Of a DNA stretch of 64,000 bases, positions 25,867-61,300 are shown piece by piece. Source of the stretch: Antedon mediterranea (lineage: Eukaryota; Echinodermata; Crinoidea; Comatulida; Antedonidae); NCBI RefSeq assembly GCF_964355755.1, contig NC_092680.1, positions 2,953,001 through 3,017,000 of the forward strand. Direction: 5' to 3'. Positions within the stretch are counted from its first letter, which is position 1. Each line of letters opens with the position of its first letter. Both the position numbers and the translations under genes were made by a program. The notes under the pieces were generated by a model, which saw only the letters and a program-made list of their open reading frames with translations, searched no databases and had not been told where the DNA came from.

Positions 25867-27117
25867 CAATGTTGGTCGTGACTACTGTACACTTACTTAT
25901 TTTTAAGGCGACTATGTTGTAGGCCATAAAGACAAGAGTAGAGAGAAAAGCCGAAAAAAAAATGTTGACGACGGACGAAATAGTTTGAATGAAACTTCAT
26001 GGTTTATCTTAAGCTTGGTTCCCACTACCAGCTAACGCAATGACGCAAGCACAACTCAAGCGAGTTGAACAATGACAAGCGGATCTATCGGTTATGGTTG
26101 GTTCCCACTAGAGACGCAACAGAAGGTCATACCGCAACGCAATTGACCAATCACAAGCGATGGATTATTCGAACTATCGCTTGTCATTGGTTAACACGCT
26201 TGCGTTGCGTGTACGTGCTTGCGTTACGTTCTAGTGGGAACCGAGCTTCAATGATTATTCAAATTACTTGCGTGGCGGTTCCTTCATTATGTTGCGTCCG
26301 AGTGGGAACCAGGTTTAGTTCCTCTGCTATTTAGAAATGTAACGTTCTTAGCTTCAGCATCTGCTTGTGCTGACATTGACAGTCGTAGTTGTCAGACCTG
26401 GGCTTACGACGGACACTGTTCATCAGACAGTATTTACTACCCTTACATGAAAACTAACTGTCAGAAGAGCTGTCATTTCTGCTGTAAGTTTACACTCTTT
26501 ACCGGTACTTTCGTAGGCCAAAAATTAATTTCTCAATTTAGGCTAGAAATATATTTTTGTTCCTATGAAATGACAAATCTTTTTTTTAAACCCACCCATT
26601 TTGTTACAATAATGTGAAATGACATTTTTCCTACAAGTAGAGTGTCCAACACTTTTGTAGGCCTACCTGCCAAGTTGACAAACATGTAAATGTAATATAC
26701 TACGTTTTAGGCTACGCAAGCAATTAAAGTAGCTTGTTACACGTACACGCTTGCGTACAGACATTTGTTTGGATGAGCAATATAGCTGTATTATGTGTAT
26801 ATAGATATATATATATATATATATATAAATCATACTGTAAATTATAGAAACAGATATATATATATATATACGACAACGTTCCAACCTTTCGTTTGTTCAA
26901 GATATTTTTGACAATTATAACACAAGAAACAATAAACAAATTATTTTAACACTGAATAATCTAAGCATTTTTGCCATATGAAAGATACACATCTTTGTAT
27001 CCCCTCAAATGATCTGACAAGGAAATGGAAATTTATTTCAAAGTCTAATTATAATATTTGTTTGTAATTTGAATTATAAAAACAAAGCTTACGTTTTCCA
27101 TTTTCTTGATTTCAGAA
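21575..27117 (+). CDS. Secreted astacin-family zinc metalloprotease with Gly linker and two ShKT domains (copy 3)
   Basis: Exons: 21575-21625, 21877-21907, 22190-22281, 22715-22793, 23433-23550, 23762-23940, 24579-24791, 25011-25046, 25412-25528, 26358-26483, plus AA of a split TAA at 27116-27117. They join in frame to 347 residues. Domains: signal peptide (1-15), propeptide with LFEGD (zinc-blocking FxGD motif), SKRW junction (about 68-71), catalytic domain with [12 protein letters not shown] (153-164) and Met-turn SIMHY (208-212), a seven-Gly linker exon (about 255-266), ShKT 1 (267-305) and ShKT 2 (306-347), each with six Cys. The ShKT tails are a common add-on in invertebrate astacins and may guide substrate binding or block channels; neither is shown here. 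Intron phases equal those of copy 2. All splice sites are intact, making this the most complete copy. Confidence 0.87.
24005..24085. repeat. Hairpin element end in copy 3 intron 6
   Basis: GGCATTCGGTGAATAATGAA is matched by TTCATCATTCACCGAATGCC around an apical GAGGCGAAGCCGAG. It sits in an approximately 500-bp stretch (23975-24480) not present in copies 1 and 2, so it is probably one end of a mobile element. Confidence 0.5.
25560..25653. mobile_element. Short ACCG element after the ShKT 1 exon of copy 3
   Basis: Starts AAGGCCATATACATGGCTGC and continues with GTCGCGTGC, an (ACCA)n run and a double ACCGACTGACTAAAA end. It lacks the typical GCACGCGAC right end. Confidence 0.55.
25693..25765 (+). 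pseudogene. Relic ShKT exon between the two live ShKT exons of copy 3
   Basis: A short frame reads [16 protein letters not shown], matching the relic at 17190-17268 but with one further Cys changed to Arg. It has no good acceptor and lacks the N-terminal half of the domain. Confidence 0.5.
25836..25867. repeat. (TG)n followed by poly-G
   Basis: A TGTGTG run passes directly into an uninterrupted G run of about 18. It lies inside the intron between the ShKT exons of copy 3. Confidence 0.85.
26009..26316. mobile_element. Family A element with a second family A element nested inside
   Basis: Outer ends AAGCTTGGTTCCCACTA and GAGTGGGAACCAGGTTTA. The inner copy, about 26095-26249, has GGTTCCCACTAGAGACGC and CTAGTGGGAACCGAGCTT. 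Self-insertion of one family. Confidence 0.6.
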
Positions 27118-27319: not shown

Positions 27320-30300
27320 TAGAGGATGATGATGATGTATGATGATGTATGATGATGTATGATGATGATGATGTATGATGATGATGATGATGTATGATGT
27401 ATGATGATGATGTATGATGATGATGATGTATGATGATGTATGATGATGTATGATGATGATGTATGATGATGATGTATGATGATGATGATGTATGATGATG
27501 ATGTATGATGATGATGTATTATGATGATGATGTTTTATGACGATGATGTATTATGATGATGATGTTTTATGACGATGATGTATGATGATGTATGATGATG
27601 ATGATGATGTATGATAATGATGATGATGATGATGTATGATGATGATGTATGATGATGATGTATGATGATGTATGATGATGATGATGTATGATAATGATGT
27701 ATGATGATGATGTATGATAATGATGTATGATGATGATGTATGATGATGATGTATGATGATGATGATGTATGATGATGATGTATGATAATGTATGATGTAT
27801 GATGATGATGATGATGCTGATGTATGATGATGATGTATGATAATGTATGATGATGTATTATGATGATGTATGATGATGATGATGTATGATGATGATGTAT
27901 GATGATGATGATGATGATGTATGATGATGATGTATGATGATGATGTATGATGATGTATGATGATGATGATGATGTATGATGGATGATGATGATGTATGAT
28001 GATGATGTATGATAATGATGTATGATGTATGATGATGTATGATGATGTATGATGATGTATGATGATGATGTATGATGATGTATGATGATGATGATGATGT
28101 ATGATAATGATGTATGATGATGATGTATGATGTATGATGATGTATGATGATGTATGATGATGTATGATGATGATGATGTATGATAATGATGATGATGACG
28201 ATGATGTATGATGATGTATTATGATGATGTATGATGATGATGTATGATGATGATGTATGATGATGATGTATGATGATGATGTATGATGATGATGATGATG
28301 TATGATAATGATGATGATGACGATGATGTATGATGATGTATTATGATGATGTATGATGATGATGTATGATGATGATGTATGATGATGATGATGCTGATGT
28401 ATGATGATGATGTATGATAATGTATGATGATGTATTATGATGATGTATGATGATGATGATGTATGATGATGATGTATGATGATGATGATGATGATGTATG
28501 ATGATGATGTATGATGATGATGTATGATGATGTATGATGATGATGATGATGTATGATGGATGATGATGATGTATGATGATGATGTATGATAATGATGTAT
28601 GATGTATGATGATGTATGATGATGTATGATGATGTATGATGATGATGTATGATGATGTATGATGATGATGATGATGTATGATAATGATGTATGATGATGA
28701 TGTATGATGTATGATGATGTATGATGATGTATGATGATGTATGATGATGATGATGTATGATAATGATGATGATGACGATGATGTATGATGATGTATTATG
28801 ATGATGTATGATGATGATGTATGATGATGATGTATGATGATGATGTATGATGATGATGTATGATGATGATGATGATGTATGATAATGATGATGATGACGA
28901 TGATGTATGATGATGTATTATGATGATGTATGATGATGATGTATGATGATGATGTATGATGATGATGATGCTGATGTATGATGATGATGTATGATAATGT
29001 ATGATGATGTATTATGATGATGTATGATGATGATGATGTATGATGATGATGTATGATGATGATGATGATGAGGATGATGTATGATGATGATGTATGATGA
29101 TGTATGATGATGATGATGATGTATGATGGATGATGATGATGTATGATGATGATGTATGATAATGATGTATGATGTATGATGATGTATGATGATGTATGAT
29201 GATGTATGATGATGATGTATGATGATGTATGATGATGATGATGATGTATGATAAATGATAATGATGTATGATGATGATGTATGATGTATGATGATGTATG
29301 ATGATGTATGATGATGTATGATGATGATGATGATGATGATGTATGATAATGATGATGATGACGATGATGTATGATGATGTATTATGATGATGTATGATGA
29401 AGATGATGTATGATGATGATGATGATGATGATGTATGATAATGATGATGATGACGATGATGTATGATGATGTATTATGATGATGTATGATGATGATGTAT
29501 GATGATGATGTATGATGATGATGTATGATGATGATGATGATGTATGATAATGATGATGATGACGATGATGTATGATGATGTATTATGATGATGTATGATG
29601 ATGATGTATGATGATGATGATGATGTATGATGATGATGATGATGATGTATGATGATGATGTATGATGATGATGTATGATGTATGATGTATGATGATGATG
29701 TATGATGTATGATGATGTATGATGATGTATGATGATGATGTATGATGTATGATGATGTATGATGATGATGATGTATGATGTATGATGATGATGATGATGT
29801 ATGATGATGATGTATGATGATGATGATGATGTATGATGATGATGATGATGATGATGATGTATGATGATGTATGATGATGATGATGTATGATAATGTATGA
29901 TGATGATGTATGATGATGATGATGTATGATGAAGATGATGTATGATGATGATGATGTATGATGATGATGTATGATGAAGATGATGTATGATGATGTATGA
30001 TGATGATGATGTATGATAATGTATGATGTATGATGATGATGGATGATGATGATGATGATGATGTATGATGATGATGATGATGTATGATGATGATGATGAT
30101 GATGTATGATGATGATGTATGATGATGATGTATGATGATGATGTATGATAATGTATGATGATGTATGATGATGATGATGATGATGTATGATAATGATGTA
30201 TGATGATGTATGATGATGATGATGTATGATGATGTATGGTGATGTATGATGATGATGTATGATGATGATGTATGATGATGATGATGTATGATGATGATGA

Positions 30301-32039
30301 TGATGTATGATAATGATGTATGATGATGATGAATGATGTATGATGATGTATGATGTATGGTGATGATGTATGATGATGTATGATGATGATGATGATGTAT
30401 TATGATGATGTATGATGATGATGATGATGATGATGTATGATAATGATGATGATGATGATGATGTATGATGATGATGTATGATGATGATGATGTATGATGT
30501 ATGATGATGTATGATGATGATGTATGATGATGATGTATGATGATGATGTATGATAATGTATGATGATGTATGATGATGTATGATGATGATGATGATGTAT
30601 GATAATGATGATGATGATGAGGATGTATGATGATGTTGTATGATGATGTATGATAATGTATGATGATGATGTATGATGATGATGTATGATGATGATGATG
30701 TATGATGATGATGTATGATGATGATGTATGATGATGATAATGTTTGATGATGATGTATGATGATGATGTATGATGATGATGTATGATGATGATGATGATG
30801 TATGATGATGTATGATGATGATGATGTATGATAATGTATGATGATGATGTATGATGATGATGATGTATGATGATGATGTATGATGATGATGTATGATGAT
30901 GATGTATGATGATGATGATGTATGGTGATGATGTATGATGATGATGTATGATGTATGATGATGATGTATGATGTATGATGTATGATGTATGATGATGATG
31001 ATGATGTATGATGATGATGATGATGTATGATGATGATGTATGATGATGATGTATGATGATGATGTATGATAATGTATGATGATGTATGATGATGTATGAT
31101 GATGATGATGATGTATGATAATGATGTATGATGATGTATGATGATGATGTATGATGATGATGTATGATGATGTATGATGATGATGATGTATGATGATGAT
31201 GATGTATGATAATGATGTATGATAATGATGTATGATGATGATGTATGATGTATGATGATGATGTATGATGATGATGTATGATGATGTATGATGATGATGA
31301 GGATGATGTATGATAATGATGATGATGATGAGGATGTATGATGATGATGTATGATGATGATGTATGATGATGATGATGTATGATGTATGATGATGTATGA
31401 TGATGATGTATGATGATGATGTATGATAATGTATGATGATGTATGATGATGTATGATGATGATGATGTATGATAATGATGATGATGATGAGGATGTATGA
31501 TGATGATGTATGATGATGATGTATGATGATGTATGATAATGTATGATGATGATGTATGATGATGATGTATGATGATGTATGATAATGTATGATGATGATG
31601 TATGATGATGATGTATGATGATGATGTATGATGATGATGTATGATGATGATGATGTATGATGATGTATGATGATGATGTATGATGATGATGATGTATGAT
31701 ATGATGTATGATGATGAGGTATGATGATGTATGATGATGATGCATGATGATGATGTATGATGATGTATGATAATGTATGATGATGATGTATGATGATGAT
31801 GATGATGATGATGTATGATGATGATGATGATGATGATGTATGATGGTGATGATGATGATGATGTATGATGATGATGATGATGTATGATGATGATGTATGA
31901 TGATGATGTATGATGATGTATGATGATGATGATGATGTATGATAATGATGTATGATAATGATGTATGATGATGATGTATGATGATGTATGATGATGATGA
32001 TGATGTATGATGATGTATGATGATGTATGATGATGATGT

Positions 32040-32075
<36 letters not shown>

Positions 32076-32885
32076 TATGATAATGATGATGATGACGATG
32101 ATGTATGATGTATGATGATGTATGATGATGATGTATGATGGTGATGTATGATGATGTATGATGATGATGATGTATGATAATGATGTATGATGTATGATGA
32201 TGTATGATGATGTATAATGATGTATGATGATGTATGATGATGTATGATGATGATGTATGATAATGATGATGTATGATGATGTATTATGATGATGTATGAT
32301 AATGATGTATGATGATGTATGATTCATGATGATGATGTATGATGATGTATGATGATGTATGATGATGATGATGATGATGTATGATAATGATGTATGATGA
32401 TGATGTATGATGTATGATGATGTATGATGATGTATGATGATGATGATGATGATGTATGATAATGATGATGACGATGATGTATGATGATGTATTATGATGA
32501 TGTATGATGATGATGTATGATGATGATGATGATGTATGATGATGATGATGATGATGATGTATAATGTATGATGTATGATGATGATGTATGATGATGATGT
32601 ATGATGATGATGTATGATGATGATGATGATGATGATGTATGATGATGATGTATGATGATGATGTATGATAATGATGTATGATGATGATGTATGATGATGA
32701 TGATGTATGATGATGATGATGTATGATCATGATGTATTATGATGATGATGTATGATGATGTATGATGATGTATGATGTTTTATGATGATGATGTATGATG
32801 ATGTATGATGATGATGATGTATGATGATGATGATGTATGATCATGATGTATTATGATGATGATGTATGATGATGATTGATTTAAA
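27320..32885. repeat. 5.5-kb satellite of ATG / GATGTAT units
   Basis: The tract is made almost wholly of (GATGAT)n blocks separated by GTAT or GATAAT variants. In its first part variants recur at a fixed distance: GCTG at 27816, 28393 and 28970 (577 and 577 bp), GGAT at 27981, 28558 and 29128 (577 and 570 bp), GACG at 28197 and 28774 (577 bp). This shows a higher-order unit of about 577 bp repeated roughly three times. After about 29,600 the pattern is irregular. The minus strand gives long open frames of His/Ile/Ser/Tyr/Thr only because the unit has few stops in that frame. Confidence 0.9.
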
Positions 32886-35800
32886 ATCAATGATGTATGA
32901 TTAATGATGTATGATTATGATGTAATTTATGATGAATGAATAATGACTTTTGATGATGACGATGTATCTTTAACAGTCAGTTGGAAGATTAGTCTATAAA
33001 TTTCAAAAAATGAAACAGCATGCACTAGTTTAAGTCATGTGTATGCGGTAGCAATTTTAGAACGATTGAAGCGTCAAAATCATAGATAAGAATGTATTGC
33101 TAACATTCGCAATAATATCAACGTCCCTGGAGCATGTCAAGTTTTATAGCTCGATCAACAGACAGGCTTTTTTACGCTGACCTGGAGCAGAACTATGGAT
33201 TAAAGTTATAGTACGTCCATATACGGCACATAATGGAAGCATCATTTCCGATATGTAATAATTGAATATTCACATATCCAATCAGAGACAAGTAACGGTT
33301 ACAAACAGATGACTTTTTGTAAAACGTATCGTAGGCCCGCGAGTATACGCTCCGAATGATAGTGAAACAAGCACCCAGCTGATTCATTCATGTACTATAG
33401 GCTAGTATACTACTAACAATTAATAGGCCTACTATCAGAATAAACATCGATTTATATGTTAGGTAAGTTTTAAACATGCACTATTATTAACTTTTATAGT
33501 ATTTTGAGTCACGGCAATACATGTACATACTTATTGTTATATAAGGTGAATTTATATGCATCATTTACTTTCAACGGATTAATACGCTGTTTGGCTTCAT
33601 GCCTAAACTTTTTGCACACATATTTCCAGTGACGTTTTTAAAGTGTTTTCTGTCGTGTAAAATCTAATTTGCCATTGTGACACAGTTTGTCATTTGCTGG
33701 AATGTAATTGATACACATTTCAATTGCTTGCAAATTAAATAATATTGGTCTATAGTTAGTTGAAATTTAATTTTAAAAGGTTTTAATATGATATTATTAT
33801 TATTATATTTTTTGCAAACGAATTACTATAATTACGCATGTACCAGTAATTACCATTTTCTAATTACCGCTGGATAAGTAGGCTAATTTTATAGTTGATT
33901 TGGTTTCTATGGAAAAAATAGGTTTGACCTAAATTATAATGTACCAATCAACCACAGGGCGTGGTCGTCACTCTAAGTAATTCAGAAATGAAGCGTGGCG
34001 ATGACCAAGAACACATGAGGGAAGTTGTATCTTACTTTACATGTTATCATACCATGATAATTGAGGTGGTGACGATGATGATAATGACGTTGATGATAAT
34101 GATGATGGGTTAAAGATAATGATGATTTCACCTATTATTTTATTATTACAATTGCAATAACTTGTTATTATCTTTTGATATATTAAAATATAACAAATTA
34201 GGAATCAAGAAACAGTGCGTCCTACTTTTAATTTCCTTACTACAAAATCCAACAGAAAGGAAGTTAGAATGTTAGTTTAACATTCGATGCGGTAAAAATT
34301 GAAGGCGTCGAAAAGACTATCGGCAAAGCTAAATGTTGGCAGTATTTCAGAGTTCCAAATAGCCAAAATAGATAAATAAACAATTAAAACACAAACATCA
34401 TAATATTAAATGCAAGAATATTTGGATGAATTTCAGACTACATTTGTTAATTGTAATTTGGCGTTTGCCAAATAAACGTCATTTAAATCCCGAGATCTCA
34501 CTACATGCTATCTTGTACTACTCATATCATTTAAAGGATTTCATTCTGTTTTGTTGGTATAAGATAACAAATCTTTTGCCAAATTTTGTTGGAGAAATAG
34601 ATTAATCAATGAATCAATATGGATCAATTTAAAAAAATTTAATTTTTTTTTTTTAAAGATCCTCTTTTTTTCTAGCATTTCATGTCCTGTGTCCACCATG
34701 GAAGTAGTTCAATCGACTGCTACAAAGTGTAAGAAGCAAATTATAAGCTTTGCATCTTATACTGCTTAGGTCATCATTTTATATTATTGTACACGGATAT
34801 CACAAGACTTATTCTGTAATAAGAATACGCGCCAAACTAATTACTATTCATTATAGTCTGCTATTGACGAAAACTTTAAAAGGAAGAGAGTTTTGAAACA
34901 GGATATCTGTGGTAACACTACGGTTTCTACTATGGTTTCTTTTCGCACTCTTCCTTTAAAAACAAGTTTACACGAAATTGAGTTTAATGTTATCAATAAA
35001 CTATCTGGATCTGTGTCTCACATAATACAGTATGCAAATTTAACACATTCAATCAGAAATATTCACTCATTTTTGTTTTGTTTTCAACATTTGAATTAAT
35101 CATTTGTCTAAAAGACATTAATTATTGCAACGAGGAAAAAAACACATTCTGCTGCAGACTACCCTGGAACAATTATTATTACATTGGCGACCTTCCAATT
35201 GTTATTTCTTTAATAAAAGGTCGGCTTAATGCTAGGCTGGACATTTGCCAGATTCTTAATTCATAATTTACAAAAACACACAAACTAAATATAATTTTAG
35301 TAGCTAAACATGTTCTAATTTTATAGGTCAAACCCATCAATATTAAGTATATAAACTATCACCTTTGAAATATACCATCGATAACACACGAGTTTACTTA
35401 TGTTTGTCTCAGGTACCGTTAATACCTTTAAATTTCCTTTTATAATTTACAAAATATATAGCAATTAATGGTGCAAGGCTGATGATAATGATTGGTTTTT
35501 ATAAAGATGTTTACGGTAATGATTATTAATGATAAAATTTATTAGATATTAAACCGAAATTAAACAATAAATATTTCTTACAAAAAACGCCGCTCGACTT
35601 TTTTGACGTAACAGTTTTAATTATTGTTCTTTCCTCATTAAATGACGATTTTTCTTTCGATTCTTTTAATCAGTAGTACCATAAACATTTTGTGTAACGT
35701 AAAATAGTCAGTATAGAACAAAGTCCGTGGCCTACTGATGTACAGAACAAAAATATAATCTTAAACTAAACTATAGTACTGTTTATATTCCCTAAGGTTC

Positions 35801-36163: not shown

Positions 36164-38705
36164 ATGAAAGCGTACAGTAATACCAATGACGATGGTGATG
36201 GAAACGAACTAGATATGGTGAGGGACAGAGGTAGTGTCGTTGGCGTATCCTGCATTGTACGACAATACGAAGAATCAAGGTTCATTGTGACTATACCAGG
36301 TCTGCCTTTGCAGCCAAAAACGGTACGGAATTCACAAACTGACAGCAGACTTCAGGCAGCAACTAACGGAGCCAATAATCACAAGTATAACTTAAGAAGT
36401 TCTCGCAAATTACCAAAAATCCCTCCTAAGCCAGTGGAAATCTGCCAAAGAACACATAAAGATTTACAAGATGCCAAAAATGGAAACACCTCTCACAGCA
36501 AGAATGTTGGTGTCCAATCGATGCAAATAAAACAACATAGAAACTGTAAGTAGGCCTAACATTATTCTATTACAGCGTCTTCCGACAGACTTCAGTGCTG
36601 GACAACCATTCCTACCAGACCATGTCTGTATTTCTTCACAGTGAAGTTTGTATAAAGTAAAATTAAATACCAGGCCTGTATTATCAATTGCTTATCATTC
36701 ATCTTTAAATTAATAATGTTTATTTATTTATTTATTTGAGAAATGACATAGATAAGAAGAACATTATGATATACTGTACCGCATAATAACGCCTTTCACT
36801 GAACAAAACCATCTGATGTAATTAGAAAAAAAGTTAATAATGATTTTATTTAGATAGGCCTAAGTGAAAATTAACACAGACAAAAATGTTTTAAAATAAT
36901 GGCAAAACTGTCCATGATAAAGTTTATCTTTTAAACGGCAGATTTATGGTCAATCTCTCAGTTGAAAAAAACTAATGTAGGGTAAACGATAACAAATTAA
37001 ATTTAAGTTTGACAGCAATATTTCAGGTCTAGGCAAGAAATTAATTGAACAGAAAAACCGCTTCCTAAACCATTCCTCGCCATTGTGTCATATCTACAAA
37101 TAGATTCTGAATACAACCTATAAATAAATATAATTAGGACTTAAAGTTGAAGAGTTCGATAGAGGGGACTTGTTTCCTGTAGAATAATTCTTTTAAATCG
37201 ATTAAATAGTACTTGGTGTTTTTTCGTTTGATTTTATAAAAACACACAAAAGAAAGTACTATTAATCTAACGTTTAAACACGCGGTACACACTTTAATTT
37301 ACAAGGATAAATTAAATCATTAAAAATATATAGAAATAAATAAATTTATTGAAAGTGATACCGGAATAAATTCTAAAATTAATAATTATATGAACAATTA
37401 ACCAACATGAAATTAATAAATAAAATTAAGACATTTTTAGAAATAAGATTTTTTTTAATTCTTTAATTGTCCTAACATTACCCACATTGTACGAATAAAA
37501 ATGAGAACAGAAACTTTGCACATTTGTTGCGTACAATATTTTGATTCAAAATTATGTTTGAAATATGATTCATTAGTCATTAAACATATTTGTTAATGTT
37601 TTAGGCGTGTTAACAGAACCAGTACTCCTTCGCATTGCCGAACAACTCGGCAGCGAGTGGCAGTCTCTACTAATCCACTTAGGCTTGAAGAAGGCCCAGA
37701 TCGACCTTATTAAATCAGAAACGCAATGGAGTGGAGGCTTACACCAAACTATCTTCCGTGGGCTACTGAAGTGGAAACAACGATGTAGAAAAGAAGACAA
37801 GGCCGTTCATCAGTTGCAGCTAGGTCTTCAACAAGTTGGACGGAATGATATATCAGAAGATCTCGATGGTATGTCTTTGTTCTTTGTAGCTGCTGCCAAT
37901 CACTGAGCAGTACCTTTGTGGAGATCAACGTTGTGTTACTTATTGAATAATAATCAAGCAGTATGGATTATGATTTTGGTAAAACTATGTTATGTTTAAA
38001 TTTATTGTTTCAATTCAGTTCTATTTATTCAAACGATACTTAAAACAACATTCGGTTGTGTACAATAAAATGTTAAATGCAAAATATGAAATAATGAATG
38101 TACAATATAGTAATAAACGAATAAAACAAAGTTTGGGTTGACTAACATCATTGCGGCCATTTGACATCTGTAAACTTATTGAATTTAAAAAGCGGCGTGT
38201 TTTATTTGACGGTTTTACTGAAATCGTAGTTCACGATTTATCAACAAAGTATCTCTACGACCTACTTATCCTCATAATTACGCAGAGATTCACAAATAAG
38301 TACCGTTACGTATTAGATATAAATGCAAGATTATTTTAAAATCTTTTTATAGAAAAAATCGAAGTAAACGGCAACGACTGTTCATTCCAGAAGGTACCAT
38401 CTCTCCAGGAGAGAGTTGACGCTTTAGAGAAGCGAGTGTCCACTTTAGAACGCCGACGACAATGCCGCTGTGATATGACATCGGCTACTGATGCCACAGA
38501 CGGCGGGGGAGAAGAGGAGTTCGAAATAGTGTCCTTTGAGGAGGTCGGCCTAGCCCAGGATCATTATTACACCGGGCATCAGAATCCAAAGAGCTCAATA
38601 CAAGACTGGATGGAATGCGGTCTGCAACGGGTTACCAGTTGGAGTTACTCCGTAGAACACGTGCAGCATGAAGAAGAAGCTATGGAATTAGATTTTGGTT
38701 TTTAA
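36164..38705 (+). CDS. Death-domain protein with C-terminal coiled coil
   Basis: Three exons, 36162-36545 (ATG at 36164), 37605-37868 and 38353-38705, all joined in phase 1, give 332 residues ending in TAA. Exon 1 encodes a basic, low-complexity N-terminal part (YNLRSSRKLPKIPPKP). Exon 2 (residues about 128-215) is a death domain, with LTEPVLLRIAEQLGSEWQ, LGLKKAQIDLI, a run like LLKWKQR and the final helix of the QQVGRNDISEDL type. Exon 3 has a short heptad stretch (LQERVDALEKRVSTLERRR) and then an acidic tail. Death domains form homotypic complexes in apoptosis and innate-immune signalling; the partner here is unknown, and I do not recognise the full architecture. The gene converges with PDE10A. 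Upstream non-coding exons are likely, since an acceptor precedes the ATG by two bases. Confidence 0.78.
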
Positions 38706-41880: not shown

Positions 41881-44800
41881 TTATTCATCTACACTTTCCT
41901 TTGAAACCGCTAATGTTGATTTTTTAAGCAATGGTATTTTCTTTCCATTGTCACTTTCTGACTTTTTGTCTTCACTCTCTTTTAAGGCTTTTGAAATTTC
42001 AGCAATGCTCTGTTTTCGTTCTACTTTCTTCTCCTTGTCCTCTTGATCTGTCCGCTGCTTGGCGACCAGTGCTGACCAATTCTGCAAATTTTTCCTATTA
42101 AGTGGTAACAAACAAAATAACACATTTTAATACACATTAAAGAATAAATAATTGCAATTTTTTAGTTTAATTTAGTTTTTCCAACTTTTCTAAATCCTTG
42201 ATTTACACCGAAGTGTTTAAGGCGATGTCATGTATAATGTTACCAAAGTTGCTGGGCCAATTTGGATTTTGAAAGTACTTACGATGCACCATCATATAGT
42301 GGCTTACTCCCTGGTACTAATTTGTATAGTAACTCATAGCATGGCAAACATATACCAACAATAAACGAAACCTGAAAAGTAAAAACATAAATAAAAAATA
42401 AATGATGTTATACTTGTAAGCCACAGATTAAAACTGTATTTACATCATTTAATATAAAAATAGTACATTCTTATGTGGTTTCATAATCTGAACTGGTTAT
42501 TCCTTTACCATATACTAATAAATATATAAACATTAAAAAAAATTATATTTATGGATATCTTTATTAACCTATAATTCAAATTCTTACTTGGTTGGCAGGT
42601 AGTTCATGTGCTTTGTCCCTATCCATCATTGGAATTGGCTTTTGGCCTTGTGCTTTCTCTTCATCTCCCTAAACATAAATTAAACAAAATCGTAGAAATA
42701 TTGCAGGCTAATTATGTTTTAAAATTGGAACCCTTTACTTAGACCTTGTTTCTATATGATACAAACTAAACATATATATTATCTACCTGGGCCCTCTTAT
42801 CTTATCTGGGAAAACAGTTTTTAAATGAATAGGTCACCCAGTATAACAAATAAATTATTAAATCTAGGCCCTTAAAACAAGAGAGTGTCTTTGACTAAAG
42901 AGTATAAAGAATAAATTAATAAATAAATCTAGGCCTAATATGATACTTATGGCAAATGAATTATAAATATAAATTCTATTCAATATCAACAATGTTTTAT
43001 AACATTCAAACAAAAGCACATACATGCACTAAAGATGTGGAACACAACTTAATGTGACAATTATCATCTCAACACTGGTGGAAAATTACAATAATTACGA
43101 TTATATATCCAGTAAACAGCACACATTTTTCTACAAATTTTATATAAGAATTTTGTAATAAGGATGTCATTGGAAAGATTAAAATTCGACAAAAACAAAG
43201 TTAAAAACCTGTTGGTAGAATTCCTCGAATATATCATAAACAACTTTACTGTGAACATCAAATGGTTTGCTAATAGCTGTTAGATCACATGCAGACATAA
43301 TAACATCATGCGCTAAAGATCTACATTAAAACAGAAATTAACATAATAATGCATATGCAAATAAAGCTTGATGAATATTTAAACATATGCTAATTTTTTA
43401 TACATGCTATACAAAAACATAAATCATGCAAATAAATATTTGATTCTCAGTGCTGTATCTCCACCTACAGCAATATTTGCCAGTATCATAGGAATATTTG
43501 GTAATACAGCATCTCTGTATCATGTTAGGTTACGGTCTATCATGCAAGGTGAAACACATGTGATGGTGTATTATAGAATTCTCCTGTGATGCTGTATTAT
43601 GGAATTCTTTTGTGGTGCTGTATTATGGCATTCTCCTAAGATAGCTAGATACAGTACTGAGAATCGGATTAAAAAAAAAAGTTCATTTTTACTTGGAATG
43701 CAAATATTTATGATTAGCATTAGCAATTATGTTCAATCAATAGGGAAGTTTTGATTTGTAACGACCAAACTACATCGTGTTTAGTTCATTGTGCGCATGT
43801 GGAGATATTGGGACGTGTGTCCTTGCTCTTCATCTCGACACAGGTTTGGTGGTCTCTAGGTCAAGAGGACGATGACCGACGCCAACTTCATTGGGTTGAT
43901 CGTCAGTCGTCACAAATCAAAAGCTCCCTATTTACAGTATAAAATTCAGTATACAAGATTTATAACAACAAAAAATGACAATAAACGATACAAAAAAGCA
44001 TATACAATATGCAATAAGCAATTAGTGAAAACAAGATGCTGAAATGAGTGAAATGACGTTACACAAAACCACTGAACTGAGCCATTCCAAGCTGTGCTCA
44101 TCACCCACCTGCTGATAAAATTCATCAAATATAACTTTAACGGTCTGTTGTTGAATTGACCACGGTTTACTGCTAGCCGAAAGGTCACAGGCTGTCATCG
44201 TGATCGACTTTATGAAGTTTCTAGATTGAGGAGGTTCAATGGCATTATGGATAGATAACTATGTGTTGGAATAGGAAAGTTCTTTTATAAGAATATACTA
44301 TGTTTAAATTGTATTCATACTGCCCTCTTTTAGGCTAAAGCTCTGTCTACACTATCATTTGACAACAAAAGTGTGATGTGCCCAAATATGGTAGTGATAT
44401 ACCCAAATATGGTATTGGTCTGACATCATGTCCATATATGGCCAGGGCACATCACATTTTGTTGTCACATAAAATTTGATAGTGTAGAGAGAGCTTAACA
44501 CTCAACCTTTTAAATACTGTACTGTATATATATATATTCATTCCAAAATTTCTAAAAGTATTGGAATTATTTATAAAGTAAAACATTTACTAAATACATC
44601 AGCTTTATTTAAATTATATAATTCATTAGTTTTGCCTTATTTTACATATTGTTGTGAAGTCTGGGGTAATACCTTTAAAACTAATTTAAATTGTTTATAC
44701 ATATTACAAAAAAAGGCACTCAGACTTGTTATGAAAGTCCCATACACCAGTCCAAGTAAACCAATTTTTAATTTTTTTAAAACTCTTGATCTTTATAATT

Positions 44801-46337
44801 TAATAAAACTATATACCGTCTCTCTAATGCATAAAGCTTTTCATAACTTACTCCCAGTGATTGTTCAAAATAATTTCATTTTATGCTCAGCTGTCCACGA
44901 TAAATACACGCGACAAAAACACCATTTCTACCCACAATTTAAAAGAACCACTCAAAAATCATTAAGTTTAGTTAGTAAAGGGGTTGAACTTTGGAGTGAT
45001 ATACCTGAGACTCTTAAGTTACTTAAGAATCCTATAACTTTTAAAATAAAATACAAAAATAAATTACTTTTGCAATACTCTGATTAGAACAGGTTTTTTT
45101 TTTTATCTTTTTTCTTTTTACAATTACATCTTACTCTCTGAGAAATCTTTTTTTTTTTAAGATAAAGAAAAAAAAAGAAACTTTCTTAAAAGTTACATTT
45201 TGTTTGCCTATGCCGTTGTGCCTTTGTTTCATATTACTATTTATAAACTGTTTTGTAACAGGGGGTTTCTACTTATAAGCTGTGCTTCAGAGATTCCCCC
45301 TTTCCATTCTTTCATTTTTGTAATGAATATTTATGTATGTTAATGGTTTTATTTTGTTGTGAATGGAAATAAAGAAACAAACAAACAAATATCACGCATA
45401 TATTATAAAATAGACATTTAGGGTTTGTAGGAAAAGAATAGATCATCACATTTCCAATTTTGGAATTGGTTGTTTTTGGGCAAAAAAATAATTAAATAAT
45501 AATAAAGTAGTATCCAACTTATTACATCTCTGATAAAGTACAATTTTTTTCAAATCGATGCAATATAAAAGATATATACAATATTATATAACAAAACCCA
45601 AATATGATTTAACTTCACGAATAAGTAATAATAATGAAACAGACAATAAGTACCTATGTGATTGATCCTCCCAGCTAAACTGCTTCTTTTCAATGAGACC
45701 CTTTAACTTGCCCTTGTTTCCAAAGAACAATGCCAGATCTGTTGCCAATATCGAATGTCGTATCTCATTCAGCACAATCTTGTACTCTTCTGAAGTCAGG
45801 TGTCGAAAAATGTTATGGCCGTCATTCTAATAGTACGTAGAAAATGTTTTATTCAAATCTTAATTTAGCATTGACAGCAGATTCACTGTGACAATTTTGT
45901 GAACATGAAGTGAACATAAGCCCTATAAAGATGTGCACTAGTTTGAGCTGTAAACAACCACCAATTGTTTTTTTCTTAAACCTCTGTCTACACTACACTA
46001 GTTTGACAAAAAAAGTGTAATGTGCCCAAAGATGGTAGTGATATGCCCAAATATGGTAGTGATATAACATCATCATGTCCATATATGGGCACATCACATT
46101 AAGTTTGATAGTGTAGACAGAGCTTTATACTGTGTATTCTATTATATCCTATATAAGATTTTTCTAACAAAGTGGCTACATCTATTGTATGCCTATATCT
46201 ACACCTATTGAGAAGATTGGGGCTCTGGGCCTCTAACCTTTAAGAAAAACCATCCCACTAGGCAATGGGTGAGAAAATATGATTTTTTAAAATGGTACAA
46301 ATGGGTTCGAACCATAGCTAGGAGAGTAACCAATAAA

Positions 46338-46371
<34 letters not shown>

Positions 46372-49300
46372 ACCATTAGCACGAAGTTGCAAGACCTATG
46401 CACAGCCCATTCGACCATGATGTTGCGAGACCTACACACTGCCCATTCGACCTGCTTGCGATACCATTAACTCACCTGTAGTATGGTAACAGTCTGGTTG
46501 AAGTGATGATGTTCCATCGTCGACGTTGAATAGATTGCAGCTAGAGGTGTTGCGTTGTTTACCATGTACGAGTTGTTCTTTCCTCTGTGATCAAGGTCAT
46601 GGCACAGACAGGCTATAAACAAAGCCAGTGACTGAAGCAAAAAAGAAATATGTTCATTTTACCGTTTTTGGTAAAAACTGTATGAAGCTGAATGTTCAAG
46701 TATTTATTGTTTGTTGTTTATTGTTGTTTATTGATTTCAACAAATAATATAATTATTTCTTTATAAATGTGGATGGTGGTCAAAATAAATCTAGAAGCAG
46801 ACTTTAAGCAGAGACCACCATTTACAAAATAAAAATAAAAACTGATGACTATCGATTTTGTTCTGATTATTGTCAATGGGTCTATAGAAAAAATATTTCT
46901 CTCTGCTTAGATTAGATGCACCTTGTATTCAGTATCAGTGGCACTGGCTAATTGTAACAATTGTTTCAAATTTAATTTATTTTTGTAATAAAAAAAGAAA
47001 AAATTATAATGCATTTTGAATATTATTTTCTTTACTGATCAATAATAGTTTCTTTAATTATTGCCTCATTTAAATACAATTGTGTAGTTGGTATATAAGT
47101 ACCCTAGGCGCTGATTTCTGTTCTGATGACGAGAATAGTATTCTCAAAACATGTCAAGTAATTTAAGGCAGGTTTGCCTGTTCATTAAATGCTTTACGAA
47201 TTTGATTTTATCTGATCAATAATAGTATTATAATAATTGTATCCAAATGCAGACTGTTTTGATTTTTATTAGTTATCAAAATAAACATGAACCACAGTAA
47301 CACAAAGGAAAAATAAATTTTGTTTTCAATAAGTCTAGTTTTTGTGATGCAATACATTCTTTAAAATTAGCTAGTTATTAAAAAAATATTGACACACAAA
47401 GATAAAAGGATTAAGATAAAAAACATACTTCAAGAAATGTAAAATTGTTGATGTCTGATTTCTTTATGATGGTGTAGACAGTGTGAGCGACCGAGAACGC
47501 ATGAGTCCAGTTGTGGTAAGGTACGTGGCGATAGTTCTTGCGTACAGTTAATACAAACCGACACAGATCATGGTAATCAAACCTAAAATAAAAAAATAAT
47601 GTTTATATTTTATAAATAAACAATAACAACATAATCATTGGTATATGAACAAATATATAATATAAATAAATAAATGTTTTGCCTTAATTTTATGATGCAA
47701 TGCGTCTGATGAGTATTTGAAATGGTTCAACCATTAAAGACTATGTTGTCTAATGATATGATGCTTGCCTTGGTATCAAGAGAGGTTGCAGGTTCGAATC
47801 CTGCAGGTAGCATTTTATCACATGATCATTTTATGGAACTTTAATCTGTTGAGAGCTAATGCTACGCAGAACAATGGTTAATTAAGCACTTTGTTTAAAT
47901 CTTTTTTAATAAGGATAAGAATACGGGCATAAACACCATCTGAAGAATTTGAAAGTAGCATATACAGTACAAAGAGAAAAAGGTGGTATTTGATTTATTT
48001 CTTCTTTTTACTGGGTAACCTCTTCAGTATAAGCTCTGTCCCAAATATGGTGGTGATATTCCCAAATATAGTAGTGATATGACATCATCATGTCCATATA
48101 TGGGCACATCAAATTTTGTTGTCACATACACTTTGATAGTGTAGACAGAGCTTAAGACAGTTCAAAATGGAATTGACTATTTATCTATGTGTTAATCATG
48201 GTAGATACTGTTCTGTGGCATGCCTTAGGCCAGTATATGGTCACCAATGCATATTTTTTCATAAATTGGGACTATTAGTGTCGGTTAAACATTTTATTTG
48301 ATGTAAATGATCAATTATTCTTTCGATAATTGGGTAAGATTAGTGTAAAAAACTATTTATTGATCAAATTATTCATGAACAAGGTTAACATTTTGCAAAC
48401 ATTAAAATGTATGCAATCTATGTGTGAGCACTTTCTATGTTTCCTCATAAAGATGTCTGCCAAGTTTATGCTGATAATAGTCATGTACAGTGTACATTTT
48501 TATTTTGCTTTTTATTCACATAATATAGTTATTTTATTCATGGCCAAGGAATTTACTAGAAATTGTGAATCGGATAACTTGGAATATTAATTATTATATA
48601 AATATTTTTGCATAAAAATACATTAAATGTTATTATCATAATTGAACAAAAACGATTGAGTTATATATAATATTAAATCAACAACAAAATATTAATCATA
48701 ATAGGAGGGATAGAAAAAGGAAATTTAGAAAAGTTTTTTTTTTAAAGGGTTGGATTTTGGAGAGATAGGGACCAAATTGTTAACACAGAAATTAAAAGTT
48801 GCAATATTACCATCATGTCATTTGCATTCATTAAGGCGTTGGCTTTAAAAGTGGAGAGCAAAAGGTTTTATAGAAAATAATATATATAATTATTAATTTT
48901 AATTAGTTAAAACAGTAAGCAAAATAAAACTAAGGTTTTATAAAGACCTTTTTAAATTGAATTAACAGACTATTATAACAAAGAAATATATTTTCAATTG
49001 TATTAGATTTTTCTTACCATAAGCCATATTATGTTAACAAAAATGTAAATCAAAGTGAAGATAAAATTTCAAAAACAATTTAATACATAAACAAAAAATA
49101 TAATAAGGAAAATGATTAAAGAAGAATTGAACCATTGAAGAATTTAATATTTAGAAAAAAGGATATTCTTGCTGAACCAAAAAGATTATTAGTAATATAG
49201 CATTTGGTTTTAAAACAATTAATAAAAAGAATCATATTAAAATTATTAACCACAAAAGGGAAGAAGCATGCGGACAAGTTGTTAAAGTCAAAAAGCAACT

Positions 49301-52300
49301 TGAAGTAGATTCTTCTACCTTTCTTCAAACGACAAAGGACCTTTTCCTGGCCTGAAATAATTATCCAATATACTACTAGTCAAAACATACACACTTGTAT
49401 ACAAATTATGCTAAATAAAATGTGTTATCATTAATGAACATTTAGACACTTTGAAGTATTTAATATTAACAACAGCACAATATACATATCACATTCACAC
49501 CCCAACCTGCCGCAACCACACTTCCTCCAAACCCGCAACCTCATCCTCACCCCTCTTTAAAAAAATGCCAAAAAGAGAGATCTAAGTACAGATAACAATA
49601 TAGCTGATGAACAACTGTTGATATGATTATGTGAGGGCGTGTGCCGCAATGTGTTTACTGATTACTGATTGTGAGATCGTGGTTCGAATTCAACTTTTGC
49701 TCCATTGCTTGTATCCTTTAGGCAAACACTTTACTTACGTTTGCCTCTCTCCACCCAGGTGTATACATCGGTACCCGATTAGGTCAAGAAAAAATTTTGC
49801 ACCGATTACTAGCTGCATTATGGGAGTATGTTTCCATACAAGATCCAAAATAATGTGCAGCGCATTCAGAGATTGCTTATATACGATAAGAATGAACTAT
49901 TATATTATAATGATTGATAATGATGACAATGACAGGGGTTAATAAGAACAGTATTAATGACGCTATGGTAAAAACCCATTAGCAAATACATTACACTATC
50001 TGTAAACAATTAAATACTTTGTTACCTTTGCAAGTCAAACAGCTCCTTAAACATACAGATTACATACAAAGGTTTAGTATCCTCATCTAAACTCCAGGGT
50101 GAAAAATCATATCTGTAAATAAATTATTACATAACAACAGTAAATATTATTGTGTGTAATAGTAAAAAAAATAAGAATATTGAGCAAAAAATATAGCTGT
50201 CTCTGGGATAAAAGAAAACATGACATCCGATATAAAAGAAATTAATTATGGAGCATATAACAAGGATTATTACATAACAACAGTAAATATCATTGTGTGT
50301 AACAGTGAACAAAAATAAGAATATTGAGCCAAAAATATAGCTGTCTCTGGGATAAAAGAAAACATGACATCCGATATAAAAAAAATTAATTATGGAGCAT
50401 ATAGGATTGTATACAGTAGAAACACTATTTATTAAGCTCTGTTTACACTATCAAACTTTATGTGACAAAAAAATGTGATGTGCCCATATAATATGGACAT
50501 GATGATGTCATATCACTACCATATTTGGTTATATCACTACCATGTTTGGGCACATCACAGTAGTTTGATAGTGTAGACAGAGCTTAAATCAGGTTACCTT
50601 GCAAGGTCTGGCACAGGATCAGGCACTTGCATATTTATTAGCTTGGTGAACTCCTCTTCTGAACATTGGCGATGGTAGCTTAAGATCTCTAAGGCTACCC
50701 GGTGTTTTTGCTCTGACCGGCGTATCTTGTCGTACAGTTTGGCGTGATGTAATGCCAGGCCACAGTAAACCGCAAACGTTTCAAAAGCTTGTTCGTCTGC
50801 CCGAGTAAATGCGCCACTCTTTTTATTCACCATCTGCACTACACCGATAATGCTTCAGAAACAAAATGTACAGTATATAGGAGATTGATACCTATGTGCA
50901 TGAAAATGAGCAATAGGAAGATGCTATGACAAATTAGATCTCTAAAGTAGATCATTTTCATCAGGTTTTAATAATGATAATTAATTTCGAGGTTGAATCG
51001 TTGTTTCAAAATGTTTGTCTACCAATCAGAGAGAGTAACAAAATCCTGAAGGAAACAGAGAACAAACCTCTGACATCACAACCTTGAATTGACCAATGAC
51101 AAGCGACAGTACGAATAATCCATCGATTGTTATTGGTCAATCTACTTGCGTTGCAAACAAACAAACTTTATGTGACAACAAAAAGTGATGTGCCTATATA
51201 TGGTGATGATGTCATATTACTACCATATTTGGGAATATCACTACCATATTTGGGCACATCACACTGGTTTGATAGTGTAGACAGAGCTTTAAGCCATGTT
51301 GTACTTACTGTCCTCTTATCTTAATTGGCATACAGAGTAGAGACTTTGTAACATAACCTGTCTGTATATCAACTTGTCTATTAAACCTATCGTCAAGATA
51401 GGCATCAGGGATGTTGAGGATCTCTCCAGATGTTGCTACGTGTCCAGCTACTCCTTTACCAATCGGAAACCTACAGAATGAAAGCAATTATATCTTAAGC
51501 TCTATATACACTATCAAACTAGTTTGACAAAAAAAGTGTGATGTGCCCAAATATGGCAGTGATATTATCAAATACAGTATGTCCATATCATGGGCACATC
51601 ACACATTTTTGTCAAACTAGTTTGATAGTGTGGACAGAGTTTAAATATTTCTTAGGGGAATAATATATCTTTTTATAGTGAGGAAACTGCAATTCTTTAC
51701 AGCTATAGCCCTCTCTTTTCCTTCATCATGTGATCTCACTGTGTGTACTTATATTTCAGAAATTCAGAAATTATTCTGACAGCGCAATCCATCATCGATA
51801 TATCAAATTTCAGATAATTATATGGATTATAGATCAGGTATTAAAATTGATGACATAAAGCTAACTGACTGAAGATAATAAGGTTTGGATATTACAGGTA
51901 AACTATCAAGAAAGTGACACATTCTTTATATTAACATATTGACATATATCAGTAGTCAGAATCATCATCTACACTGATCCAAACTGACTTGCTGTAATGT
52001 ATATGAACGTAAAAAAAACAACAGTATTTTGGTTATCACACACAGTTGCATGGTGTTCAGGAGACAAGTTGAACATCTGGGACGCCTCCCTGGTGACTTG
52101 GGAGGTTTGAACATTGTATTGCCCTGTATAGGTACTAGAGAATGTTTGAGATTGTTCTACAGTAACTACAGTTCAGTAGCTGGAAATACTCCATTAACTA
52201 AATATGGAAATGTAGTCCACTTTATTTACCGTATCTCTTTGTGATCTTTCGTAACAACTTGGCTCCCTTGGCCATCACCTACATCAAATATTCTGGCATA

Positions 52301-55300
52301 TAGCTCTTTGCTTTTGTTGTCCACCAGAAAAAGAGATGCCCTGTCTGCACTTACAAGACGCTGAGCAAAATTCTAAATATAATATATATATATATATATT
52401 AACATATTATTTATTAAATATATGGCCGCTAAAGTGGCACATCATGCATGTACCATACAATTCTAAGTGATTTTATTTTTATAAGGTATATTAGTAGGGG
52501 ATCACGGATGGGAAAATAGCTAGGGCAAGGAAAAACAAAATGTAAGGTGTTTTTAACCATTCAAAAGTGTGAATCATCATCACAACAAGAAGTATAGTAA
52601 TAATTTAGCAAACAGCCTTTTTTGAACTCTTCCAAGAAATATATTTTTCAAAAAACATCAATTTTGGGGTCATTTTAGGATGTTGTCTGACCTTTTAAAA
52701 TTGGCAGTAGAACCCCTATTAAGGGGAGACTTTCCCATGAAACACACACAAAATAATATGTTGCCAATTTTAGTCAATGCCTATTCAGGGGACACCTGTA
52801 AAATAAGGGAAGACATTTTTGTATCTAAAAGGTGTCTATTTCAGCATAGAGATATTATAGTGAATATCTCTATGATTTCAGGTACTGTATCTATACTTGT
52901 ATCTTTTTGAGGAAAGAGTAATATTTGAGGAATTTTAAATGTGTAGTAGTACTTCTGTGTATAATTGTAAGTAAATGAAAATGATACCTGTCATAGGTCC
53001 CACTTAAGAACTATTATTAATGTGAAATATCCGAAAAAGATTAGCAATAATAAGTTATATTTGGTAACAAATACTAAACCTTTATCTGAGAATGTAAATA
53101 AACTTAGGTGGTCTATGCTTGGCCATATACTTAGAATGAGTGAAGATACTCCTGCTTTTTCAGCATTGGTGTTTGGTATAGTACACTCTAATTCAATAAA
53201 AGGGCGAATTGGAAAACATCAAACCAATCTGTTAAGTACACTTAGAAATGATTTATTTATCAGATTTTTAAGATAAATAATTTTAACGACCTAATTAATT
53301 TGCGTGAGATTGCCAGTAACAGAAATAAGTGGCTTTTGTTATTTTGAATCTTTATTTTTACATTATTTTATATTTTTTGTTGTTGTAGGATGCATGCATA
53401 TAAGAACGTATCAGATTTTGTAAATCCACAGTGCGTGGTTTTGTTACATTTTTTGGAATAAAGTTACCTATATATATATATATATAAATGAAAATTATAT
53501 TGATTGACACATGAATGTAATAGCTACCAGGGAACTAAAAATCAATAAAGCTGCATTATGAAATATATATCTCACCATTATTTTCATAATGACACTGTCC
53601 ATACTTATTATATCTTGAAATATCGATCTATATGAAATAATAATGAGGGTGGGAAAAGCATTCAATATAAAAATAACACAATTAACATCAAGCATTTGGT
53701 TAGGTACATCAAAATATAAACTCTACTAAGCATAACCTTGGTAACAAACAATTAAATTATTTTTGAATATTAAACAAAACTAATCAAACGACAGGCTTTG
53801 ATGTGATTAAGTTTCACAAATTTCATTTCTTAATCAGCCCTTGATTATATTTTTCAATCAATAATGTGATTAATTTTCCTCATGGTTAATTGACGCCAGT
53901 GCATATTTTTTCATCAGTTTAAATGCCCACACGTCTTTGATTCTTGCATATTTTTTTATTTATTATATAACTTTACATTTCAAAGATGTATACACTTTAA
54001 ATTACTCTTTGAGATTGAGATGTTTAAAGCTCTGTCTACACTATCAAACTTTATTTGACAAAAAATGTGATGTGCCCATATATGGACATGATGATGTCAT
54101 ATCACTACCATATTTGGGCATATTACTACCATATTTTGGCACAACACACCTTTTTTGTAAAACTAGTTTGATAGTGTAGACAGAGCTTTCGACAACCAGG
54201 TTGACGATCTAAGTTTGGCCGCCCTGTGGTTCATAAAACTTCTTTGTTATTTTACAAATATTCAGATACATATTGGATGAAAATACAGTGATTACATTTG
54301 CTATTGGCAAAACTTGGCAATATGCCAATGTAATCAATAAAAATATAAATCATAATTAATTATTACTCCACTTACTTCGTAACGTTCATTATAAAATCGT
54401 TGAGTTTTCTTTGCCGCGTCATGTTTTGATAAATCTAATAAAAAAAAAATAATGTAATATAAAAATTATAATAATTTTTTTTAAAAATACAAAAAATGAT
54501 GAAATAGATTGTGCTATTTTAGATTATAGATCAAATTATTATATATACAATAATATAAACAATATTTTATTTTAGATTGCAAGATAAAATTTAAAACACA
54601 AGGGTCTTATGTAATAAAATAAAATTACTAGTAATGTAAAAAAAAATAATTGAAGATGTTTTTAAAGATATTTAAAGAGTTTAACCATTTTAAAAACATA
54701 TCAATTCCCTCACATCTATTAAGCCGTGAATTTAATGTTCTCTAAAAACATAAGCAGGAAATCCTCTTTATATAAATCTGTTGACCTTTTAAACTAAAAA
54801 CAAGATAATCAAGAATCTGTTTACATTACTACATTGTACAATTCTATTTTTCTTATTCGTCTGTATATTATTATTATAAAAATGTAATATAATTTTATGT
54901 ATGAAAAACTCAAATTACATTTATCAGTTGTATTTGTAAAATGTTATCTTAAAATGCTGAAGTGATAATTTGGATGTTGTTTATGTTTATTACTCTTTTT
55001 CAATACATCAAAACAAATTTAAAACAAAAAAAATATGTCTCAGGGTGGGCTTAAATCCAGATTGGGACCTCAGGGTGAGCTTGTACAAAGATACACTTAT
55101 GTGTGAAAAACTTAAATTACATTTATCAGTTGTATTTGTAAAATGTTCTCTTAAAATGTTGACGTAATAATACATATCCATTTGGATGTTTTTTTGCATT
55201 TATTACTCTCATTCAATTCATCAAAACAAATTTAAAACAAAAAACCTTACAACTTGCACGTCATTGTAAGATAAGTACGTGTTTGCTGTACTATTGAAAC

Positions 55301-58300: not shown

Positions 58301-61300
58301 CATACCTTTCATGTTTAAATCCAACTTTTAATAAAAGATTTTATTTTGCTAATAATAAATCACATAGCGTCGATCCTAAGGGGTGGGTATGTATATTTCT
58401 AAACACAATTTTATATCTTTCATGTTTAAAATAACTAAATACACGATAAATTTTATTAAGCTATGCCACAGCAGATGCTGTCAAACTGCATGCAAAGACA
58501 TATGTATCATAAATGCCAGTTGCTTTATATATTGATGTCAATTTGTTTTTATGTGAATTTTTTTTGCGTTACATAATTTTCTCATTTTTTTGACACAACA
58601 TCGTGTTTATTGAATAAAATTTATATGGCACATTGAAAGGAAACGTGTGACTTCATTATCAATAGCCTCTGAACTGGACTGCATTGCTGTTATCAATAAT
58701 AATGTAAAGAATCGTAATTATGTAAAGACAGTTAATAGTTAAAGATGATGTATTTTCTCCATTAAAAACATAAAACATCATATTTTGAATAGGCCATTTT
58801 GCAGTTTCAATAAAATCATTCATTGCATAGTAAAAAAAGGAACAAAAATAAAAACAAAATAAATGGTTGCATTTAACCAAAAACCATTGTGACAAAATAT
58901 TGACTATTTTTTACTTAAATTACAGTTTTTTCAGGTAAATATTAATATTTTTCCAACTTTTGGTCAAAGTGAATAACTATTATGTTATAAAAAATTATTT
59001 TATAAGGGGGACGATACATCATCCGCAACCACGCCCACATGTGGGAACGTACCAACGTACCACCGTCATCATTTCATTTTCACGATATAGACTATAATAA
59101 TGTTAAGCTCTGTTTACACTATCAAACTTGATGTGACAACAAATGTGATTTTCCCATATATGGACATGATGATGTCATATCACAACCACATTTGGACATA
59201 CCACTAACATATTTAGGTACATCACTACCATATTTAGGCACATCACTACCATATTTAGGCACATCACTACCATATTTAGGCACATCACTACCATATTTAA
59301 GCCTTAAATGATGAGGTATCAACTACTATAAAGTAACAAATGTCAACGTCAGCAATCATCTCAAACGTCATTTAACTGCTATTTTTAAATAAATTGATAT
59401 TAACCTTTGTAGAATGCACTAAAAGCTTGACATTTAAAAGTCAGTATAATGATTATTGAATGTGTTTTGTATGTCTTGTCATACTATATTAATTAGAAAA
59501 AAACTTTTATTGCAGCATGTCGTTTAAGCAAATCATTAAAGTATTACATTTGTTTGAAATAAAAACAATAATTTACAAGACTGTGTCACACTAGTATTTG
59601 TTGACGAGAGAGACTGCAATCCAATTTCTCACTATGAATGCTTGATGTGTGTCCCCTATCCCTACCACCTTCTTTTCCAACTACCAGTATTAGGAAGCTT
59701 TTGATTTGCAACAAATGTTGTATACAAATAAAGTGTTCAACACTCTGTACACTATCAAACTAGTTTGACAAAAAAAATGTGATGTGCCCAAATATGGTAG
59801 TGATATGACATCATCCATATATGGGCACATCACATTTTTTGTCACATAAATTTTGATAATGTAGACAGAGCTTAATGTAATGATGGGTAAACAAAATACA
59901 AAACATGAATAAATATTAAAAGAAAAGTGTAACAATTTTTTTTTTAAATACACAAAATAAATACAATGGCGAGTGATGATGAGTAAGATGAGAAAACTTT
60001 TATATATATATATATTAATGTTATGTAATAATGTTCCTACCTCTGCATAGTAGTAGGCAAGGCTTCCCCATACTAAAAAGTTGCTTGCAATCTAAAAAGG
60101 AAGAAATATCCACAAATCATAATTATCAAAGCCATCTCCTAGTCCTATCTCAATTAAATTCTACATTTAATAAAAAAATATACATTAATCTGTACCCTTC
60201 ATCATTAAAATATGGGACATACCAAAGCATATCAATATTTATGTAATAATAATATATGTTCTAAACTAATTTTTTATGAACGTCAATTTTAGTTCGCAAA
60301 CTTCTGATGGGTGACAAGATCCCTGTTTAAGTCTACAATTATTTGATTATTTATTTTTATATATTTATTATTTTTGTTGGTACTGTATGTAAATCATAGT
60401 GTGTTGGCGACTGTCCAGCAGAACTTTATAAAATATTTATAAAATTAATTTGTTATCATAAATTCAATATAAAAAATATTCTATGCTGTGAATAACAGAT
60501 AATTATATAAAAAAATTGTTATTTAATATAATCATAATTTTCTTGCCAATGACAATATTTTAGGTGACAATACACCTTTAATTTACCTCTTCCTCCGATT
60601 CTGTAAAACCGGGATGGTTGGTCTTTTTATGGAATTCTAGGACACCTGCAACGAACATTACACAAAAAGACTAATAAAAAATGTATCATTGAATCAATAA
60701 AGAGAAAAACAACTTAAGCTCTGTCTACACTATCAAATTAGTTTAACAAAACAAATGTGATGTACCCAAATATGGTATTGGATTTGACATCATCCCTGTC
60801 CATATATGGGCACATTTTTTGTTGTCACATAAAGTGTGATAGTGTAGACAGAGCTACAGATTACAAAGAGATGACGGCAATTAAGGCAAGGAGATATTAT
60901 AAATTAATCCAAACTTGCATTCAGTATATTTTCAGTATAAATGAGGTACAACACACAATAATTTAAAATCAATTGAAACAAACAAAACTGTATGCAAACA
61001 ATTACATCATGCCAACACTTCCGTTTTACCAAGGAGAATCCAGTATTTTTAAGTTATCACCCAGCTTAACATTGATTTTCCCAGTTTTTCACACTTCTCC
61101 GGAAAACAAAATGTAGTTTATTTGAAAGTGTTTTATTAGGCCAGAGTCAACAATCCACACAATACTGTACACAGGCATCAGTTAAAGGTCTACTACAGAT
61201 TAAGTGCCAAAAACCTAGACTGTATTAAAATACTCACTAAACATACTACAGTGTGATGTGCAAAACTAAGAATGTGGAAAGCACAACAGTGTTAAATTGA

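Follow-up and report, generated by a model that had tools for sequence, protein, structure and literature searches.

A probable pair of mutually exclusive exons for the active site of a second PDE10-type gene in Antedon mediterranea

The locus and its PDE gene

The window, by which we mean the whole 64-kb stretch of DNA that was analysed (C11:2953001-3017000 of a 354-Mb genome in 18 contigs), contains a PDE gene that is encoded on the minus strand and extends from beyond the right window edge to about 42.0 kb (Table 1). Its model was obtained by spliced alignment against human PDE10A (with whose sequence the PDB matches agree) and against a paralog located on contig C7. The predicted protein bears the marks of class I PDEs, namely the HD metal-binding His and Asp residues, the invariant Gln (within PANQ) and the Pfam domain PDEase_I, and, as judged from its sequence, it is PDE10-type in architecture, with GAF-A, GAF-B and an HD-type PDE catalytic domain. 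In comparisons with known structures, the catalytic part matches human PDE10A with 295 bits, versus 263 for a PDE5/6 chimera and 229 for PDE2, while GAF-B matches PDE10A with 220 bits versus 214 for the PDE5 tandem GAFs, summed over two stretches.

Table 1. Features of the window (positions are counted from its first letter; slashes within sequences mark exon borders)
Feature	Position	Strand	Remarks
GAF-A exon	63530..63623	-	Further 5' exons lie beyond the right window edge
GAF-A exon	60587..60645	-	
GAF-A C-terminal exon	60041..60091	-	
Exon between GAF-A and GAF-B	54376..54434	-	
Exon at GAF-B start	53576..53627	-	
GAF-B exon	52230..52372	-	
GAF-B exon	51309..51470	-	
GAF-B C-terminal part and linker exon	50598..50852	-	
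First catalytic-domain exon	50026..50117	-	Found by scan with other PDE sequences; upstream border approximate
Catalytic exon, YHNWTHAF motif	47429..47582	-	
Catalytic exon, CHDLDHRG metal-binding motif	46476..46631	-	
Constitutive exon upstream of A and B	45654..45826	-	Ends ...EDQSH-AG/GT
Exon A	44109..44220	-	112 nt, phase 2 to 0; weak acceptor, strong donor
Intron between exons A and B	43321..44108	-	788 nt
Exon B	43209..43320	-	112 nt, phase 2 to 0; strong acceptor, weak donor
Constitutive exon downstream of A and B	42588..42668	-	Final Gln corresponds to invariant Gln726 of PDE10A
Catalytic exon after the downstream constitutive exon	42283..42371	-	Spliced alignment, structure match
Last predicted coding exon	41998..42094	-	Spliced alignment; exact 3' end approximate
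Frame resembling the C terminus of a non-LTR reverse-transcriptase element	44488..45084	+	199 residues; in the intron upstream of A
Death-domain exon	37577..37903	+	Pfam E 2.6e-9
GAT-rich tandem array	27325..32967		5.6 kb; frames are long Ser/Tyr/Ile/His repeats; no gene
ShK-like domain exon	26255..26614	+	Pfam E 2e-8; near the astacin exons
Astacin metalloprotease exon	15585..15920	+	Pfam E 5e-24
Frame resembling an astacin exon	5417..5758	+	Judged by eye

Another PDE10-type gene is found at C7:16230693-16247195. In a phylogenetic tree it groups with human PDE10A (97/97), and the same tree leaves the window gene without a resolved position. The C7 gene is likely the PDE10A ortholog of this genome. 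The original prediction had called the window gene PDE10A-like, which stands as far as the PDE10 type is concerned, but C7 provides the better PDE10A ortholog, so that the window gene is more properly described as a second PDE10-type gene.

Other features lie around this gene. MITE-like repeats with inverted ends (AGCTCTGTCTACACTATCAAA...GTGATGTGCCCAAATATGG) occur in several of its introns, at 44329-44505 and near 51250-51290, 51500-51560, 50560-50590 and 48060-48150. The reverse-transcriptase-like frame listed in Table 1 has no Pfam match at E 0.001. Additionally, two tektin exons match the sea urchin axoneme chains of 8SNB far better than the mammalian ones (175 versus 136 and 211 versus 135 bits), which, on the basis of these two genes, suggests an echinoderm. 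COX1 had no match among the contigs, viral contigs yielded no eukaryotic relatives, and the GFP family gave no match in a search that had no working control.

Two homologous exons at one position

Between the constitutive exons that flank them, the gene contains exons A and B, whose coordinates, strand, 112-nt lengths and AG/GT borders had been correctly given in the original prediction, as had the junctions with the upstream exon end (45654) and the downstream exon start (42668). Both exons are preceded by AG and followed by GT, begin with the A that completes a split Arg codon (AG/A) and end in CAG. They encode homologous blocks of 37 residues, of which 17 are identical, and the block includes the metal-binding Asp together with part of the PDE catalytic pocket. 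It had been claimed that both exons supply this Asp segment, and indeed the metal ligand is kept in A and in B. The description of the preceding eight residues as variable is true of seven of them, but the eighth, a Met, is common to both exons.

When searched against each other within the window, A and B are matched by tblastn with an E of about 1e-9; in the whole genome the value is about 5e-5, and each is among the best matches of the other. No third or decayed copy of the exon was found in the window by sequence search.

The C7 gene has a single 112-nt exon at the corresponding place, with the same borders, and no second or decayed copy was found in its introns. In this exon, the metal-Asp motif is TASDL, not TACDL. 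The exon borders SH/R, QQ/GD and GA/S are common to both genes, and NQ/V very likely is too. By contrast, the three PDE5/6/11-like genes of this genome (on C4, C6 and C2) have other intron positions around the block than the window gene.

Reading frame and the consequences of wrong splicing

It had also been argued that only the use of a single exon of the pair would leave the frame open, and this was borne out when the flanking exons were joined in silico with A only, with B only, with both or with neither. With either exon alone, the frame is open through the catalytic domain, and the match of the full domain to Pfam PDEase_I scores 269 bits for isoform A and 263 bits for isoform B. By contrast, translation of the joined A-B product ends at codon five of B, and when both exons are left out it ends about 13 codons into the next exon.

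In both wrong combinations, at least two more exon junctions follow the stop, as would be expected if the pair were mainly an expression switch, in which double inclusion or skipping leads to unproductive, degraded mRNA and the differences between the proteins are minor. Such a switch, however, needs no two strongly diverged and conserved coding versions, and it leaves unexplained why it is the pocket that has changed and not the catalytic residues (see below), which makes it a quite improbable account of the pair as a whole.

Splice sites and the means of exclusion

As a reference for the splice sites of A and B we used some 31 further sites of the two PDE10-type genes, including those of a few uncertain exons from automatic models. 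For exon A, the acceptor is poor, outscoring 1 of 32 sites, and the donor is good, outscoring 28 of 31. For exon B it is the acceptor that is good (it outscores 20 of 32) and the donor, CAG/GTTTTT, that is poor (it outscores 1 of 31). The strengths of the sites are, in other words, complementary between the exons. Opposed weak splice sites are a common feature of regulated exons.

Regarding the mechanism of exclusion, steric hindrance is ruled out because the A-B intron, with 788 nt, is too long for it. A search for long-range RNA pairing among the introns and splice sites gave nothing above dinucleotide shuffles. As no enforcing base pairing was found, exclusivity may rest only on the decay of the wrong products; it could also rest on trans-acting regulators in combination with such decay. 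The donor of exon B (AACAGGUUUUU) has an 11-nt perfect complement upstream of A (43191-43213 and 45088-45110), which is not significant versus shuffles; this match with the first intron (inverted repeat I7) was consequently rejected as a pairing element.

Age of, and selection on, the pair

The DNA of A and B is 55% identical overall, with 65%, 73% and 27% identity at the first, second and third codon positions, respectively. As the value at third positions is at the random level (29% is expected for the base composition here), synonymous sites are saturated. In 20,000 runs of a neutral simulation, 2 of 37 residues were identical on average and 10 at most, versus the 17 observed, and these data are strong evidence that purifying selection has long acted on the two exons taken together. 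This test covers both exons jointly, in one genome, and is of such a kind that a recent release of one copy would not show.

Given that DNA identity is only 55%, A and B are not haplotypes that were wrongly joined. More generally, an assembly artefact, or the duplicate of a gene fragment that has nothing to do with the splicing of the gene itself, might be suspected where transposon-like inserts in the introns make rearrangement possible, but besides being so diverged, the two copies lie in order and in the same orientation within one gene and have compatible phases. We therefore give this explanation almost no weight.

The exon of the C7 gene shares 19 of 37 residues with A and 15 of 37 with B, B being the more diverged copy. 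Identity between the cores of the window gene and the C7 gene is 46.5%, close to the 45.9% between A and B, so that the duplications of the exon and of the gene seem to be of similar age; exon trees reject neither order of the two events (p-AU 0.31).

The greater divergence of B and its donor, nearly the weakest of those compared, are also what would be expected if one exon, more likely B, were a relic, seldom or never included in the mRNA and open by chance or recently abandoned, so that the gene would effectively produce a single PDE isoform. However, B contains neither stops nor indels, the residues conserved among PDEs are present in it and its acceptor is strong, and its residues have been retained in spite of saturated synonymous sites. 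Additionally, a random 37-codon stretch of the same composition would be stop-free in only about 5% of cases. A relic is, consequently, unlikely, although past selection on the pair is no proof of the present-day use of both exons.

The use of one exon or the other, which we regard as very likely, is favoured by the frame logic, the homology, the intactness of the splice sites and the long-term purifying selection, and these support the mutually exclusive reading with which the original prediction had begun.

What the swap would change in the pocket

We take the metal-binding Asp of TACDL to be residue 674 of PDE10A, in agreement with the Thr685/Thr688 numbering in the literature. In this numbering, D674, L675, A677, S679, K680, P681, I692, F693, E695, F696 and Y697 are kept in both exons, while four pocket positions differ between A and B: 678 (Ser in A, Ile in B), 682 (Trp, Phe), 685 (Gln, His) and 688 (Thr, Val). 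The surface of the helix that follows differs as well, and the contrast between KPW and KPF and along the next helix, as originally described, is thus found at 682 and on this surface. The His that exon B has at 685 is presumably the residue of the dual-specific PDE1B at that place, and position 678 aligns by motif with what we take to be PDE9 Glu406, which partners the invariant glutamine.

It has been proposed that Thr685 and Thr688, versus Gln775 and Ile778 of PDE5, are the cause of the larger PDE10 pocket (PMC4694998). These are positions at which A and B differ, and the claim that the swapped block belongs to the active site is accordingly upheld, with the metal Asp kept and the role of these positions in the pocket as described in the same work. 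In PDE9, the E406A mutation hardly affected Km but reduced kcat for cAMP about 8-fold, and the authors of that study dispute the “glutamine switch”, in which the invariant glutamine sets nucleotide choice (PMC3069055).

As positions of the pocket wall differ between A and B, a change in the catalytic or inhibitor profile is plausible, and it is somewhat more likely than not that the swap alters the function of the pocket. A clean cAMP/cGMP switch is only a hypothesis. In its specific form, splicing would switch nucleotide selectivity, with A (Gln at the position of PDE5 Gln775) inclined towards cGMP and B (His, as in PDE1) inclined towards dual or cAMP use; we find this possible but rather doubtful. 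If true, it would constitute a natural test of what determines nucleotide choice in PDEs.

Proposed explanation and comparison with known systems

Taking these observations together, A and B are probably, in our judgement, a genuine mutually exclusive pair that tunes the active site of a second PDE10-type gene. An ancestral 112-nt exon, still single in the C7 PDE10A ortholog, would have been duplicated in tandem long ago, and each pre-mRNA would now take A or B, while mRNAs with both or neither, given their early stops, should be degraded. The two resulting isoforms would be alike in fold, in the Asp that binds the metal and in the remaining residues for metal binding and the base clamp, and would differ in the wall of the substrate pocket and the next helix, so that cAMP/cGMP preference, Km or inhibitor profile would most likely be altered. 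The anatomy of the exons, the frame logic, the past purifying selection and the PDE10-type architecture are seen in the sequence itself, and from these we infer splicing of both exons in vivo, regulation of the choice between them and a difference in kinetics between the isoforms.

The best match in sequence is PDE10A itself (human and C7), which has the same GAF-A, GAF-B and catalytic arrangement and, in the case of C7, the same 112-nt borders. However, the C7 gene has one exon in place of the pair, and the variants of human PDE10A are reported to diverge chiefly at their N and C termini (reviewed in PMC12571622). PDE5, PDE6 and PDE11 belong to the same superfamily; exon A has a Gln where PDE5 has Gln775, and both exons have KP where PDE5-like enzymes have KP. 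The original prediction knew of no established case in PDE10, and in the literature searched, with incomplete coverage, we found mutually exclusive exons in no PDE, a negative result that carries little weight.

Tandem duplicated exons are rare, with 236 events in human (PMC9741552), and mostly avoid ligand residues; a large structural survey found only 9 mutually exclusive exon events touching catalytic residues (PMC7954323). A and B are best read as a further case of a known type of exon, within an enzyme family for which we know of no reported case. Mechanistically, the nearest proven parallel is COQ-2 of C. elegans and other rhodoquinone makers, in which exclusive exons, 6a and 6e, also swap part of an enzyme active site, and two residues in the swapped exon set substrate choice (PMC8659336). 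COQ-2 is, however, a polyprenyltransferase, and splicing and substrate change were proven by experiment there, whereas the use of A and B is predicted from sequence.

PDEs have been studied intensively as drug targets, and how they choose cAMP over cGMP remains a matter of debate. A single scaffold that naturally comes with two pocket walls would allow nucleotide and inhibitor selectivity to be probed in an experiment that nature has already set up, and splicing would enable one gene to act in two signalling contexts. Ancient tandem exon pairs that both keep the core function, as A and B would, are also present in KHK, PKM, FYN and PGM1, where they fine-tune ligand binding (PMC9741552), although these are vertebrate and unrelated enzymes, unlike the window PDE. 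Among them, the PGM1/PGM5 case resembles that of the window gene and C7 in that one paralog has the exon pair and the other does not.
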